The notes beneath the pieces were generated by a model. It ran no database searches. It worked only from the letters and a program-made list of their open reading frames with translations, and was not told the DNA's origin. From Prevotellaceae bacterium (lineage in GTDB: Bacteria; Bacteroidota; Bacteroidia; Bacteroidales; UBA932): a DNA stretch of 35,368 bases. Numbering within the stretch: position 1 is the first letter of the stretch; each line of letters starts with the position of its first letter. The stretch spans positions 1 to 35,368 of the forward strand of contig JAISOH010000002.1 in the NCBI GenBank assembly GCA_031275825.1. Direction: 5' to 3'. A program made the position numbers and the translations under genes. Shown in pieces: positions 1 to 9,532 of this stretch.

Positions 1-63
1 GATTTTTGTCAATTTATCAAAAATAATTTTGTAATTTTGCAGCAGATTGTTCATTGTATTTAA

Positions 64-567
64 TTATCTTATAATCATGCAAATATACGACATTTTTGTC
101 AAATGAACAATCTTTTTTATATTTTTTTCCAAATGTACAACGGGTGTAAAAATGCGGAACAAATCTTTGCAAGTTTTGTAAAGGCAATACGCAGAACCTG
201 TCAGAATTGGCAAAACAGCGGATTGTTTGCTTAAATGAATTGCATTGCAAAGCAAGTCAATGTTTAATCCGTTTGGAATTACAAAAATGACAATTACAGA
301 TAAAGTTTCAAAAACGATTGAGTGTTTATAATAATCTTTAATTCGGTGTAATTCAGTTTTGTATGATTTATTTTTTGTGTCCCAAAGTTTTTTTCGCAAA
401 GGGGAACTAAACAAAATAGAAAGCGAAGATATTTTAAAACCAATCATTATTGACAGATAAGTGATTAAGTCGGAATAACCGTCAAACTCACAATCAAACA
501 GAAATAAACCGCCAATGAAAGAAGCGGAAAATATAATCCAAAACCATATTAAATCTTTGCCTTTCAT
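64..567 (-). CDS. Small membrane protein with about 4 TM helices; RexB/KwaA-like partner of the upstream gene (tentative)
   Basis: 167 aa ORF with four hydrophobic stretches (LIWFWIIFSASFIGGLFLF, LITYLSIMIGFKISSLSILFS, SIVFETLSVIVIFVIP, AVLPILTGSAYCLY); ATG overlaps the TGA of the upstream gene (ATGA at 564-567), indicating translational coupling. Confidence 0.65.
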   Translation of the reverse strand: MKGKDLIWFWIIFSASFIGGLFLFDCEFDGYSDLITYLSIMIGFKISSLSILFSSPLRKKLWDTKNKSYKTELHRIKDYYKHSIVFETLSVIVIFVIPNGLNIDLLCNAIHLSKQSAVLPILTGSAYCLYKTCKDLFRIFTPVVHLEKNIKKIVHLTKMSYICMIIR

Positions 568-1359
568 TTGTTTATTTCTTTCAATAGATTATCTCGAACT
601 TCATCTATTTTTATTTTGCCATTTTCGTCTTTGTTTGCGGATATGTTGATTTTTTGCTGAAATGTATCAACATTGTAAATCGTTTCAAAACCACTGTCAT
701 CTGTTCCGCAAATAACCAAAGAATCAATGTGGCTATCTTGTTTTGCTTGAAAAATATTTTTAATAAAATCAACGATATTTTCTTTCTTGCACTTTGCAGA
801 AATAGTGAACTTATCGGGTGCATCTGTTCCTGTTAAATCCTTTAATGCCTGCTTTTTAGTGCTGTCGTTGCTAAATAGATTGTTTATGTGTGTAAAACTA
901 ATCTCATTGCACGATTGCAATGTGTTTAGAAATTCTTCTCTGTCTTTGAATAAGTTTTTGATTTTATAATCAGTGCTTAATTTTTCTTTCAGAATTGATT
1001 CAAGCAAACTTTTCTTTTTTGAATTTGAAACATACAATCTTTGTTTTGCATAATGAAACAGAAAAAATGCTTGATTGTTTAGTTCTGTTTCTTCTGTGGT
1101 ACGTTGATTTGGCGTTTTTTCCCCTGTATTCACATTTGTTACATTTTCATCTCTTGGTTCAGGATTACCAAAATAGCAAATAAAGAAAGCATAATCATCG
1201 TTTTTTTTCAATGGCAATCTCGTAATAAGTTTTGTCTCTCGTAAATGAAAAACTCTCTTCCAAAGCACCAAACGACTCTTTTGTTGGTGTTACAAATCTT
1301 TCGCCTCGTTCTTTGCTTTCTTCTATTAATTGCATTATTGAAAAAGGAACTTCTGCCAT
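564..1359 (-). pseudogene. RexA-like/abortive-infection-type soluble protein, split by a -/+1 frameshift in an A8 tract (1201-1208); about 264 aa if restored
   Basis: Frame from ATG at 1359 reads MAEVPFSIMQLIEESKERGERFVTPTKESFGALEESFSFTRDKTYYEIAIEKKR*; the 235-aa ORF frame continues ...KKNDDYAFFICYFGNPEPRDENVTN...; the switch falls at AAAAAAAA; 796 nt = 3n+1, so removing one A restores one frame. C-terminal half (KKENIVDFIKNIF...DSLVICGTDDSG) recalls the lambda RexA layout. Confidence 0.5.
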
Positions 1360-1371
1360 AACTATTTATAT

Positions 1372-2286
1372 TTATTCCATCTCTAAACTTAATTGTTTAA
1401 AATTTGACTTCGCTCTGCGAGTATGTTTCGCAAAATCTTTCACATCAAAATTGCAAACCAACGCCTCAACAACTTCTCGGCGGTTTTCAAGGTTTGCGCC
1501 GTTGTGATAAAAATGGTCTTTTGTCAGAACATTAAATTTGCCCCAATATTTTGTAATCATTTCATTTTCACGATAATCGTTGTGGTGCCAAGTAGAAAGA
1601 ACAAATTTTGCCTTCGTTTCGCTCAATAAATGAAACAGATTTTCCTCGTCTTTCTCTGTCCAACCGTTGTAATAATCGGTGTGGCGACCGTAATATGGGG
1701 GGTCGCAATAAATTATGTCGTCTTCTGTGGCAAGCGGGATAATTTCTGTGAAATTTGTATTGTAAAACTGCCAATCTGGTTCGGGTTGTACGATTTGCGA
1801 AACTGCACTTAATTGATTGACAATCTTTGTTATATATGCTTGTGCAAATCTGTCGGGCTTTTTGCAAAACGGAATATTCCAATTTCCTTTACTGCCGAAA
1901 CGCATCATTCCGTTGAAACCTGCTCGCGAAAGAAAAATAAAATCGTAAGGCGAATGTTCTCCGCTGTTAAAACGAGTTCTAACGGTTAAATAATGTTCGT
2001 AGCCGTTATTGTCTGCCTCTCGCAAAAGTTTTCCTTCTTGTTCAAGATACTGTTTCATTGCAGAAACGGTAATTAAATTTTCTTGTACCGACTTATAAAA
2101 GTTGATAATGTGCGGATTCGTGTCGTTAAGAATGGCTTTTTTGTAGCCCGAATTGAACGCCACAACGCCTGTTCCCAGAAACGGCTCAATCCATCGCCCG
2201 CTGACTTTCGGGGCAACTTCTTTTATCCAAGGAACAAGTTTAGTTTTAATTCCCTGACTTTTAATCGGTGGCACAACTACTTTCAT
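1372..2286 (-). CDS. D12-class N6-adenine DNA methyltransferase (Dam/EcoRV-MTase type)
   Basis: WIEPFLGTGVVAFN (FxGxG motif), IIYCDPPYYGR (DPPY motif) in D12/alpha order; 1 nt from the EcoRV-like REase gene. Confidence 0.93.
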   Translation of the reverse strand: MKVVVPPIKSQGIKTKLVPWIKEVAPKVSGRWIEPFLGTGVVAFNSGYKKAILNDTNPHIINFYKSVQENLITVSAMKQYLEQEGKLLREADNNGYEHYLTVRTRFNSGEHSPYDFIFLSRAGFNGMMRFGSKGNWNIPFCKKPDRFAQAYITKIVNQLSAVSQIVQPEPDWQFYNTNFTEIIPLATEDDIIYCDPPYYGRHTDYYNGWTEKDEENLFHLLSETKAKFVLSTWHHNDYRENEMITKYWGKFNVLTKDHFYHNGANLENRREVVEALVCNFDVKDFAKHTRRAKSNFKQLSLEME

Positions 2287-2287
2287 A

Positions 2288-3100
2288 TCAGGATTTTTTA
2301 GAGATTTTGGTTAATAAATCTGTGCGACTTTTGAACTCTAAAAAATTCTTCAAACTTGTAATTTTTACGGTTTTGCCGTCTTTGAGCATTGTTGCATTGC
2401 CGAAATTCATCCAATACTCGTCAAACCATTCTTCGCCGAGCTGGCTGAAAATACCGTTTTCGTTCTTTAAATCCTCAAAATTTAGCGTACAACCAATATT
2501 TGCAGTGTTTCCCGAACCTTGTTTGTCGCTTGCGATTTTCCATTTTTCGGCGGCAAAAAATTCAAAATCTTTTACGACAGACACAATTGATTTCAATTTG
2601 CTAATATCTAAAATTTCTCTTTCGGAAGTTTCAACTCTCGTGTAAATGATACCCAAACAATAATGTCCTGCATACTGATTATAAGGAAATTGAATGTTTT
2701 TTTGCTTGTCGCGTTCTTTGAAATATGCACCGTGTGAGCCAAGCGTAAAACTTGCTATACCACTCTTTTTGCGACAAGTTGTTTTCAAATCAACGGCAAA
2801 TTTTATGCTATCGTCCAATTTATTGACAAAAGTAAGATCGGGATAATAGTTTTGCTGTTCGGCAAGGATTATATTGTAGCCAATTTCTTCTGCAAACTGA
2901 ATTATCTGCGGGAATATATGAATTTCAAGAATTTTAGACACGATTTTCGTGTCAGACGAAATGGTATAAATGTTTTTATAAACATCAATGAAACCTTTGA
3001 TAGACCATTCGCCTGTTTCAGTCGCCACATAATTCTGCAACTTTTCGGCAAAACCGTCTAACTTTTTCTTGAACTGTATTTTATATTCTGTTTTTGTCAT
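2288..3100 (-). CDS. Type II restriction endonuclease, EcoRV-like (predicted GATATC)
   Basis: Colinear with EcoRV: SDTKIVSKILEI, QQNYYPDLTF, FAVDLKTT (catalytic D-x-K), FTLGS, PYNQYAGH, YTRV, GSGNTANIG, WFDEYWMNF. Confidence 0.93.
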   Translation of the reverse strand: MTKTEYKIQFKKKLDGFAEKLQNYVATETGEWSIKGFIDVYKNIYTISSDTKIVSKILEIHIFPQIIQFAEEIGYNIILAEQQNYYPDLTFVNKLDDSIKFAVDLKTTCRKKSGIASFTLGSHGAYFKERDKQKNIQFPYNQYAGHYCLGIIYTRVETSEREILDISKLKSIVSVVKDFEFFAAEKWKIASDKQGSGNTANIGCTLNFEDLKNENGIFSQLGEEWFDEYWMNFGNATMLKDGKTVKITSLKNFLEFKSRTDLLTKISKKS

Positions 3101-3143: not shown

Positions 3144-4337
3144 TCATTTTCCCCACATTTCTAAAAATTTCAAAATATTATCCCAACCAACTATTACGCT
3201 AACTATCAATGTTATAAAGGCAATTACGATACTGATTAACATACCTTTATTTGCCTTCTTCGATTTTATGTAAGTTGCAGCATTGGCTTTGTAGATTTCT
3301 TTTTGTTCGGCAAGCCAACTGTGAAGTTGGCGAGCGACAGAAGAAGTAAGCAATATGGCGACTTCGGGCGTTGTTGCGGGAAAATCGGGAAGATTTTCAG
3401 CAATATTTTCAATTTCTGCGAGTGCCTCACGAGCGTTTGAAAGGGCGTTTAATTGTTGATTAAATGCCTGTTTTCTGTCTTTTAAAAGGGATTTTGAGAA
3501 ATTGGCATTGACAATTTCGGAAAAATCAGAAATAGTGGCGTTTTCTGCTTGCAAGAAAACAGTGTTTTCGAGCGCACAGATAACAGCGACAAGCGTGTTA
3601 TCTGTTGGCGTTCTTTCGAGGTCGCCGTAAAGTTGCGAAAGCAAATTTGAGGCGGCTGCACTGTCAAAATTACTGTATAACTGTTGTGCTTGGTGTATGT
3701 GCAGGGCTTTTTGATATGCTGCAGTTTCGTCCTCGTCGGCTTGCCGATTGAGGCGTAAAGCAAAGAAATCGGCAAACGAAATGTAATCTTGTTCGGACAG
3801 TAGCACACCGAACAGCAAAGTAATCTCAAAATAGAGTTTGACGATTTGCGAAAGCAAAACGGAAAAAATCGGGTTGGGCTGCGTGTGTTCCTGAATATTC
3901 TTTGCATAGCGGGCAAGCAAAGTAAGCACTTCTTTTACTTCCTGTTTGCCACAAATATCATCTTTCAGAATCTCAACCGACTGCAATAAACGAAGTTTAA
4001 TGCGGTGAGCTTCGGCGGTTATTACAAAGAAATAAAACCGCTGAATCAGCGTTGTCGCCGCAGGCAACGGCAATGCGATTTCAGGCGAGAAATAATCCGC
4101 CGCAACTTGCGTGTATTCCTGATTATTGAGGAATTGCGCAATATTTACCGGCACATCGGCATTGAAATTTACCTGTAAATTTCTGCAGATTACCTGCTGC
4201 AACCTGTTTTCGAGTTCGGGCAAAGTTGGCGGAATATCCGCTAACAAGCGCGAAATTTCGGCATACTCGGCAGGCGGTTGGTCGCCTTGCGGCTGCAATG
4301 AGCCGTGAATGATACTGTCGTATATTTTGAGTTCCAT
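3144..4337 (-). CDS. Hypothetical helical protein with a C-terminal TM anchor, next to the integrase
   Basis: 397 aa ORF, long helical composition, C-terminal MLISIVIAFITLIVSVIVGW TM segment; 10 nt from the integrase stop. Confidence 0.75.
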   Translation of the reverse strand: MELKIYDSIIHGSLQPQGDQPPAEYAEISRLLADIPPTLPELENRLQQVICRNLQVNFNADVPVNIAQFLNNQEYTQVAADYFSPEIALPLPAATTLIQRFYFFVITAEAHRIKLRLLQSVEILKDDICGKQEVKEVLTLLARYAKNIQEHTQPNPIFSVLLSQIVKLYFEITLLFGVLLSEQDYISFADFFALRLNRQADEDETAAYQKALHIHQAQQLYSNFDSAAASNLLSQLYGDLERTPTDNTLVAVICALENTVFLQAENATISDFSEIVNANFSKSLLKDRKQAFNQQLNALSNAREALAEIENIAENLPDFPATTPEVAILLTSSVARQLHSWLAEQKEIYKANAATYIKSKKANKGMLISIVIAFITLIVSVIVGWDNILKFLEMWGK

Positions 4338-4347
4338 ACCTGTAATA

Positions 4348-5457
4348 TTATATTTTTATTTCAGGAAAACAATCTATCGCATCGCGTGCGCCTTTGTCGG
4401 TAATATTGGCGTAATGCTTGATTGTTGTTTGAACGGATTTATGTCCTAATAACTTGCTAACCTTGTAAATATCAACATCGTTTTCCAACAGGATAACACC
4501 AAAGGAATGGCGGGCAATGTGGAAATGTAAGGTCTTTTTTATCTTCAATTTGGCGGCAATACCTTTGAGAGCTTTGTCGCAGGTTTGCTGTAACGGCACA
4601 TCGAACACTTTCATATCATCGGCTTGCCGCTCGCCGAGCAGGGCGATTGCCTGCGGATTCATCGGCAAAAGAGTTACGCTTGTCTGCTTGCCTTTGCTCG
4701 TTTGGGTTTTCTGCTGCGAAAATTGTAACTTAAAATCAGGTGTTATATTGCCCCAAGTGAGGTTTTTAATGTCGGAATAACGCATACCGCAAAAGCACGA
4801 AAACAGAAAAACGCGCTTTACTTTCGTGTTGAGGTCGCTTTGTGCAATGCGTGAAATTTCGTCGGTTGTGAGATAATCGACAATGGTTTCCTGTTTCTTC
4901 GGGGCTTCCACATCAAGCAGCAAATCGGCGGGGACAATTTTTTCGGCGATTGCTCTTTTGATTGTTGTTCTCAACTTGGAAAAATAGCCGTTGGCGGTAT
5001 TGCCGTTGAGGTTTTTAGTCAGATATTCCGAAAAATCCTGCAAATGTTCTTTTGTCAGGTTTTGAATTTGGAAATCGTGCCCGCCTAAAAACTTGCGGAA
5101 ATGTTCGGTCATCATTTCGCCGCCTTTGGTGGTGCTGTTCGCGTCCAAATAGGCGATTACGGACTGTTTGCGCTTGTGCGCAGGCGTTATGCCACGCGGC
5201 TCGGCGATTAGTTGATTTTCGCGCTGATTGCGAATTTGCTGCGCTAATTTCAGACTTTCGCGGTTTGCCTCCCGCTCGGCTTTGGTGGGGCGGTCGGACA
5301 ACACGGTATAAAGTTTCAGGTATTCATAATGGCGTTTGCCGCCCTGAAACCAATCTAAATAGTAACTGCCGTTTCCGTCGGAAAGTTTCTTAACTCGAAG
5401 TTTTACAGTACTTTTCATATCTTTTTTACATAAATTCCTCACGCTCGGAAAATTCAA
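4348..5457 (-). CDS. Tyrosine recombinase/integrase (Bacteroidetes mobile-element type)
   Basis: Catalytic residues in CGMRYSDIKNL, HIARHSFG, LLGHKSVQTTIKHYANI; N-terminal arm-binding plus SAM-like region. Confidence 0.95.
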   Translation of the reverse strand: MNFPSVRNLCKKDMKSTVKLRVKKLSDGNGSYYLDWFQGGKRHYEYLKLYTVLSDRPTKAEREANRESLKLAQQIRNQRENQLIAEPRGITPAHKRKQSVIAYLDANSTTKGGEMMTEHFRKFLGGHDFQIQNLTKEHLQDFSEYLTKNLNGNTANGYFSKLRTTIKRAIAEKIVPADLLLDVEAPKKQETIVDYLTTDEISRIAQSDLNTKVKRVFLFSCFCGMRYSDIKNLTWGNITPDFKLQFSQQKTQTSKGKQTSVTLLPMNPQAIALLGERQADDMKVFDVPLQQTCDKALKGIAAKLKIKKTLHFHIARHSFGVILLENDVDIYKVSKLLGHKSVQTTIKHYANITDKGARDAIDCFPEIKI

Positions 5458-7687: not shown

Positions 7688-7888
7688 TTACAATAAATCA
7701 GCGCCGTTTTTTAATTCTTCAGAACACTGGCGGCAATAAAGTTTAATTTCATCTTCAATAAATGGAGAATTAATCAATACTAATTCATTTTCTATAATTT
7801 CATATATATCATAACGATTAGGTTGCGAAATAAATTCCGTTGAACCGCATTTACAGGGTTTGATTTTTTTATTTTTAGATGATTTCAT
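7688..7888 (-). CDS. Small zinc-ribbon protein (CxC...CxxC)
   Basis: 66 aa; CKCGSTEF...LYCRQCSEEL; overlaps the upstream REase gene by 14 nt. Confidence 0.65.
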   Translation of the reverse strand: MKSSKNKKIKPCKCGSTEFISQPNRYDIYEIIENELVLINSPFIEDEIKLYCRQCSEELKNGADLL

Positions 7889-8630
7889 AACGTTCTGATT
7901 TTGTTAAAATTATACTGTTATAATCATTTGAATTTGTAAATTCATATTGCCAGATTGAATAAAAATTATTTCTTTTTTCAAAAAAGAGAGTTTTCACCTG
8001 CTTATTTGTATATTGTTGCCATTGTCTGTATGGATAAAAAAGTTGTCGTATAATAGTGTTTTTTGTAGAACTGTTTTTTGCTTCTATTAAAATAACTTGA
8101 TTTTTCCCTTCGTAGCCTGCATCAACTTCTGTTTGTACGCTTTTGGTTGTAATTAATTGATTATTTACTGTAAAAGAAAATTCAGGCGTGTATTTTCGAC
8201 CTCGAATTGTTAAAACCAAACTGTCATCTTTCAAAAAAGTACGAATTAAACTCGAAGCGTAAGCAAAATCCAAATGTTGCATTTCGGAATTACCGACCAA
8301 AGAAGTGTCTAATTTGAAACCAAGTTTGGACTTATATATTTTTACTGTTGAATGTATGTCGGGAATATTAACATAACCTTCGCCTTTTACAATAGCATAT
8401 TCACCATTTCGCGTTGGTAGCAAAAATAATTGATTGTTAATAAAAATTTCAGGTCTGTTTTCTCGACTATCTTGCTTACAAAGGATACGTACTTCTCGTT
8501 CATTTGTTTTCGTAAAATGTTTGGTTGCCATTTTTATCATTTCAGCAGAAATAATAAAAGGCATATTATCAAAATCATGATTTTGAATTTGATATTTATC
8601 AAAAATTGCTTTCCAAGAATTACTATTCAT
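7875..8630 (-). CDS. Putative type II restriction endonuclease (PD-(D/E)XK)
   Basis: TEVDAGYEGKNQVILIEAKNSSTKNTIIRQLFYPYRQW gives a D...EAK nuclease motif; overlaps the adjacent MTase by 4 nt. Confidence 0.75.
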   Translation of the reverse strand: MNSNSWKAIFDKYQIQNHDFDNMPFIISAEMIKMATKHFTKTNEREVRILCKQDSRENRPEIFINNQLFLLPTRNGEYAIVKGEGYVNIPDIHSTVKIYKSKLGFKLDTSLVGNSEMQHLDFAYASSLIRTFLKDDSLVLTIRGRKYTPEFSFTVNNQLITTKSVQTEVDAGYEGKNQVILIEAKNSSTKNTIIRQLFYPYRQWQQYTNKQVKTLFFEKRNNFYSIWQYEFTNSNDYNSIILTKSERYEII

Positions 8631-9532
8631 AAATTAAAAAGTGTATTTTGTAGATTTAATTGATTTAGGCGATTTATCGTGAGAATTATATATTCTTTTT
8701 CTATATCAATTCCGATATATTTTCTGTTGCCAATAAATTTTGCGGCAACACCTGTTGTTCCGCCGCCATTAAAAGGATCAAGTATTAGACTGCCATCATT
8801 TGTTGAGGATGAAATAATACGTTTTAATAAAGCGAGCGGTTTTTGAGTTGGATGTTTACCAAACGTTTTTTCATCGGGCAAAGGGGTCGGAATACTCCAA
8901 ACGCTACGCATTTGTTTGTTGGGAATTTTCATTTTATCTTCTTTGAAAATGCCATTTTTCATTTTCTCATAATTAAAAATATGCTTTGCTTTTTTATCTT
9001 TTTTTGCCCATAATAAAGTTTCGTGACTATGAGCAAAAGTAGTACAAGCCAAATTAGGAGCAGCATTAGGTTTAAACCATGAAATATCGTTAAGAATATG
9101 AAATCCCAGTTTTTGAAGTAAAAATCCACATTGGTAAATACTGTGATTTGTACCACTTATCCAAATAGTTCCTTCTGGTTTCAATATTCTTTTACATTCT
9201 GTTATCCATTTTTCATGAAATTTCAAATCCTTTTCAAAACCATTACTTTTATCCCATTTTCCTTTATTTACACTTACCATTTTTCCTGCATGACAAGTAA
9301 TTCCATCATTAGAAAGATTATAAGGAGGGTCGGCAAAAATCATATCAATATAATTATCAGGAAGCGCAGCCATTATGTCCATACAATCTGCATTATACAA
9401 AACCGTATCAGATGTTTCATACATCGGTTTTATGTTTTGGGGTTCATTATTGTTTGTAATACAAAATGCGACATCTTTCATTTTAATAGCAGTTTCAGAA
9501 TCAACGATATAATATTCCATATTTTTATTCAT
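8627..9532 (-). CDS. Beta-class N6-adenine DNA methyltransferase, DpnA/M2.DpnII-like
   Basis: MIFADPPYNLSNDGITCHAGKMVSVNKGKWDKSNGF, WISGTNHSIY, PAPNL-like PNAAPNLACTTFAHSHETLLWAKK, KHPTQKP, DPFNGGGTTGVAA. Confidence 0.93.
   Translation of the reverse strand: MNKNMEYYIVDSETAIKMKDVAFCITNNNEPQNIKPMYETSDTVLYNADCMDIMAALPDNYIDMIFADPPYNLSNDGITCHAGKMVSVNKGKWDKSNGFEKDLKFHEKWITECKRILKPEGTIWISGTNHSIYQCGFLLQKLGFHILNDISWFKPNAAPNLACTTFAHSHETLLWAKKDKKAKHIFNYEKMKNGIFKEDKMKIPNKQMRSVWSIPTPLPDEKTFGKHPTQKPLALLKRIISSSTNDGSLILDPFNGGGTTGVAAKFIGNRKYIGIDIEKEYIILTINRLNQLNLQNTLFNL

Follow-up and report, generated by a model that had tools for sequence, protein, structure and literature searches.

An EcoRV-type restriction-modification (R-M) operon with an appended RexAB-like two-gene exclusion module, in which a DNA sensor would be coupled to a membrane effector, is the reading we prefer for four genes at the edge of a Bacteroidota contig, and we hold it with about even confidence. 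The R-M genes are followed by a conserved gene pair, soluble then membrane, which recurs behind R-M genes in other genomes and which in this genome bears two lesions. The window, by which we mean the whole 35,368-nt stretch analysed, is one entire contig, C159, of a draft assembly (85% complete; 202 contigs totalling 2.46 Mb), which we take to be of Bacteroidota by its relatives and promoter type; the four-gene cluster lies at the contig edge. On the minus strand the order is a tyrosine recombinase (integrase; 4348-5457; PF00589 E 2e-19, PF13102 E 3e-14), a 397-aa ORF with a C-terminal hydrophobic segment (3144-4337), an EcoRV-family type II restriction endonuclease (REase; 2288-3100, 270 aa), a D12-class N6-adenine methyltransferase (MTase; 1372-2286, 304 aa), a frameshifted soluble, putatively RexA-like gene (564-1359; assigned from its two ORFs, its relatives and a fold model) and a membrane gene. 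The native part of the last, residues 1-140 of a four-helix protein by alignment with 157-aa relatives, spans 146-567 and is interrupted by the end of a multicopy insertion-sequence-like repeat (1-145). The four genes were found where the preliminary description had placed them, with a gap of 1 nt between REase and MTase, the ATG of the soluble gene at 1359, 12 nt past the MTase stop, an ATGA overlap of the soluble and membrane genes at 564-567 and a membrane ORF of 167 aa. The single promoter that it proposed also fits, because a Bacteroidota-type -7 box (TAccTTTG) lies just ahead of the REase and the promoter motif scan found none at the REase-MTase or MTase-soluble junctions, as judged by motif match only. 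The integrase, however, is not immediately upstream as had been stated, but is separated from the REase by the 397-aa ORF.

The assignment of the first two genes to an EcoRV-type R-M system, as originally proposed, is firm on homology. The REase matches the Pfam Endonuc-EcoRV family (PF09233) at E 4e-102 and 341 bits (cut-off 25), its residues 22-254 align with EcoRV structures (E 1.5e-39), and it keeps the residues aligned to the catalytic D74, D90 and K92 of EcoRV, together with the GSGNT recognition loop. The adjoining N6-adenine MTase matches MethyltransfD12 (PF02086, E 7e-45), TIGR00571 dam (E 2e-53) and PADLOC MTase_II (E 3e-113), and both R-M genes look intact. The REase family, these conserved residues and the adjacent D12 MTase are shared with the EcoRV system, whereas the placement of both window genes on one strand, at the 1-nt spacing and with two extra genes behind, is a difference. 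GATATC does not occur in the window (10 expected; 261 in the genome as a whole), but its avoidance was rejected as proof of an active enzyme; the scarcity is uninformative because other 6-base palindromes are also strongly scarce across the window (GAATTC, 1 versus 15 expected; TTCGAA, 0 versus 8 expected). A second type II R-M pair is present in the window at 7875-9532, where an N6/N4 MTase (8627-9532) overlaps an REase-like protein (7875-8630; DUF6996/DUF6997, PADLOC REase_II E 2e-34). Five viral contigs from IMG/VR (L018-L022) carry an EcoRV-like REase (64% identity with that of the window across residues 94-270), with a closely similar MTase behind it and no RexAB-like pair.

The soluble protein had been described as a frame-restored protein of 264 aa. 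In the window its gene is split into ORFs 1195-1359 and 564-1271, with the break at an A8 run (1201-1208); both halves lie within the length of intact relatives, and the break is therefore inside one gene. Homologues in L003, L063, L064 and L065 are single ORFs, and the protein length is 264-268 aa. Programmed frameshifting at the A8 run was considered and rejected, since one base must be skipped, unlike the usual -1 slip, and relatives cross the same point without a frameshift. Transcript slippage, phase variation or assembly error may account for the break. Of seven Bacteroidota copies of the soluble gene three are broken, each beside a membrane gene that is still open; two of the breaks are in-frame TAA codons (G470 L059/L061 and G632 L080) and the third is the window frameshift. 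The G470 gene additionally has its 5' part missing or replaced. With the G470 and G632 genes also interrupted by stop codons, non-functional pairs may be common.

The membrane-protein ORF (64-567) does encode 167 aa, as first reported, but its final 27 residues (window 64-147) are non-native. They are element sequence, because window positions 1-145 make up one end of a repeat whose copies share a sharp boundary (ACC[C/T]GTTGTGCATTT). At least 11 further copies with unrelated flanks are present in the same genome, running into contig ends in 10 of 11 further cases, and a different ORF elsewhere in the genome ends in nearly the same tail. The repeat end supplies the last codons of the membrane gene and carries a Bacteroidota-type promoter motif (motif match). 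By comparison with the 157-aa homologues, the protein has lost about 11 of its own residues, the conserved FSKFVI tail, to this replacement, and the missing native tail was not found elsewhere in the genome. We call the repeat insertion-sequence-like; no transposase belonging to it was seen. The preliminary description assumed that both genes of the pair work, but with a frameshift in the soluble gene and mobile-element sequence closing the membrane gene, the module is probably inactive or weakened in this genome.

The soluble and four-helix membrane pair is a recurrent, conserved unit, adjacent and in soluble-then-membrane order in six other Bacteroidota genomes (G171, G470, G632, L063, L064 and L065). 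When nearly 1,000 genomes from the phylum were searched with profiles or proteins, the soluble gene turned up in the first three, where it always adjoins the membrane gene. A membrane-protein scan of 85,488 species genomes, in which R-M played no part in the selection, added L063-L065, of which L065 is from Pleomorphovibrio. In L063-L065 the pair ends a same-strand operon, with small or no gaps, that is headed by a type IIG enzyme and continues with one or two genes that vary (in L063 a TIR-domain protein), a 46-aa basic protein, the soluble gene and the membrane gene. The L065 enzyme is PADLOC PDLC03612 (E 7e-235), and those of L063 and L064 are near-identical to it by reading, only that of L065 having been scored. 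The 46-aa protein is proline-rich and conserved, lies directly before the soluble gene (L063:5435-5575, L064:6990-7130 and L065:7065-7205) and is absent in the window. Because L063-L065 form one lineage, with pairs about 90% identical, the number of independent events behind the linkage to R-M is about three, and the one in G201 belongs to the distant PDC-M18 group considered below. In G171, terminase/portal-like prophage genes, as read from ORFs, are found about 1 kb away from the pair, and the G470 and G632 loci are cut by contig ends.

Co-occurrence of the pair with R-M genes was seen in other genomes, but at none of the other EcoRV loci examined. The pair is absent from the examined stretches of 13 other EcoRV-bearing genomes (L043-L055) and from the five viral EcoRV loci, with improved profiles included, and an EcoRV-specific association was rejected on these counts (0/13 and 0/5). 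A first genome scan with the soluble protein found nothing, no relatives of the Bacteroidota soluble protein were detected in plasmid and phage collections or IMG/VR, and an alignment-based scan of IMG/VR with the membrane protein also found nothing. One apparent relative, in G244, was a false positive and is a LacI-type regulator.

Among catalogued defence candidates, PADLOC PDC-M18 (A and B) shares the pair layout. The match of the L065 membrane protein to PDC-M18B is weak (E 6e-4, its residues 50-143 on model positions 53-142 of 174), and the profile also finds the G470 membrane protein (E 0.006); the window protein gave no match at E up to 1. G201 contains a clear PDC-M18A/B pair on one strand behind a type IIG enzyme of the PDLC03596 type and a helicase, so that a PDC-M18 pair, too, sits behind a type IIG enzyme. 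PDC-M18 pairs of two phages sit where lambda has rexAB, or close to that place: in a Vibrio phage the pair comes straight behind a CI repressor, and in a Halomonas phage a single 253-aa gene separates it from the LexA-type repressor that precedes it. The Bacteroidota soluble protein nevertheless differs in being shorter (264-268 versus about 340-360 aa) and in lacking a PDC-M18A match, both in profile search and in profile-profile comparison. Because the soluble proteins of the two groups are unmatched at sequence level, the relation is tentative, and the Bacteroidota pair may be a distant relative of PDC-M18 at most.

The likeness to RexAB suggested by the preliminary description is borne out in gene layout, has a tentative fold match and finds no support in sequence. 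The soluble protein of L065 was modelled with AlphaFold2 from only four sequences, at low confidence (mean pLDDT 50.5), and the best Foldseek match of the model in the PDB is E. coli RdgC (2owl; E 0.03, probability 0.92), with human CENP-N/CCAN chain N, CENP-N being the counterpart of CHL4, at ranks 7, 10 and 32. RdgC and IML3/CHL4 have been reported as structural relatives of lambda RexA in the paper on the RexA crystal structure (PMC11077077). The same model matches similar-sized phage proteins at E 9e-6 to 1.4e-4, with a phage RdgC at rank 20, whilst no PDB match reaches E 0.001 and the RexA crystal structure is absent from the top 50. Because the model is weak, we take an RdgC/RexA fold of the soluble protein as a tentative lead, in accord with the independently observed gene layout, and not as proved. 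The L065 membrane-protein model comprises four long helices (pLDDT 66.5), and a fold search gave no significant PDB match. Sequence profiles gave no match to lambda RexA or RexB, and profile-profile comparisons with RexA, whether made from the soluble proteins or from PDC-M18A, were without significant result. The pair shares with lambda RexA/RexB, and with RexABpp of P. putida (PMC12894663), a soluble gene followed by a four-helix membrane gene on one strand, the second likeness being drawn from the published description and not from sequence. It differs from lambda rexAB in following the MTase of an R-M operon and not lying beside a CI repressor. We consider it most likely that the pair works like RexAB, and treat it as no more than a candidate member of that family.

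By analogy, the most likely role of the pair is to detect phage DNA and put the cell into arrest. In P. putida RexABpp a DNA-binding RexA-like protein triggers a four-transmembrane protein, the membrane is damaged and growth stops (PMC12894663), and it is from this system and lambda RexAB that we infer DNA sensing, activation and membrane damage. In the proposed sequence of events the restriction enzyme would cut unmodified sites in incoming DNA, and where phage DNA still replicates the soluble protein, with its probable RdgC/RexA clamp fold, would bind abnormal phage DNA. The DNA-bound protein would then switch on the four-helix membrane protein, which would damage the membrane and bring growth to a stop.

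Ordinary clustering in a defence island, by which an independent RexAB-like or other abortive-infection module lies behind R-M genes and shares their transcription but not their function, is a real though somewhat doubtful alternative. It is favoured by the G171 pair, which stands near prophage genes without R-M, by PDC-M18 pairs in phages and plasmids with no type II R-M directly beside them, by the absence of the pair at other EcoRV loci and by the second type II R-M system near the cluster in the window. Three different R-M contexts (EcoRV-type, type IIG PDLC03612 and type IIG PDLC03596) nevertheless have the pair downstream of them, closely spaced and in the same orientation, which speaks against this reading. 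A Kiwa system, which was also raised at the outset and would likewise combine a small membrane protein and a soluble protein in one operon, is very improbable: no member matches any PADLOC KwaA or KwaB model at E up to 10, Kiwa proteins are missing from the 50 best PDB matches of the membrane-protein model, and the soluble-then-membrane order is the reverse of kwaA-kwaB, the gene order of Kiwa. Quite unlikely, too, is a toxin-antitoxin-like pair in which one protein restrains the other and the pair stabilises the R-M operon. A small membrane protein whose gene overlaps that of its partner would suit such an arrangement, and the Rex-like proteins of phage Butters do work in this way, the membrane protein restraining the soluble one (PMC12894663). 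A soluble protein needed as antitoxin is argued against by three genomes that have a broken soluble gene and yet keep an open membrane gene, albeit with a replaced tail in the window.

Returning to the restriction operon with an appended RexAB-like module, a broader version would hold that such modules entered restriction operons more than once as a back-up layer, the soluble clamp reading restriction products or escapees and triggering membrane shutdown, giving a combined restriction and growth-arrest system outside prophages; we regard this as unlikely on present grounds. A related pair in restriction operons would point to a concrete trigger, either the products of restriction or escape from it, and would illustrate how restriction is combined with growth-arrest defences. 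The lesions in three of seven Bacteroidota copies would also help in studying the cost of such modules. Separately, EcoRV-family matches appear as two stretches in six genomes (G299, G159, G270, G151, G130 and G066; loci L029-L034 and L037-L042), mostly in longer open frames of 294-320 aa, which suggests an insertion or shift in the middle of these enzymes.
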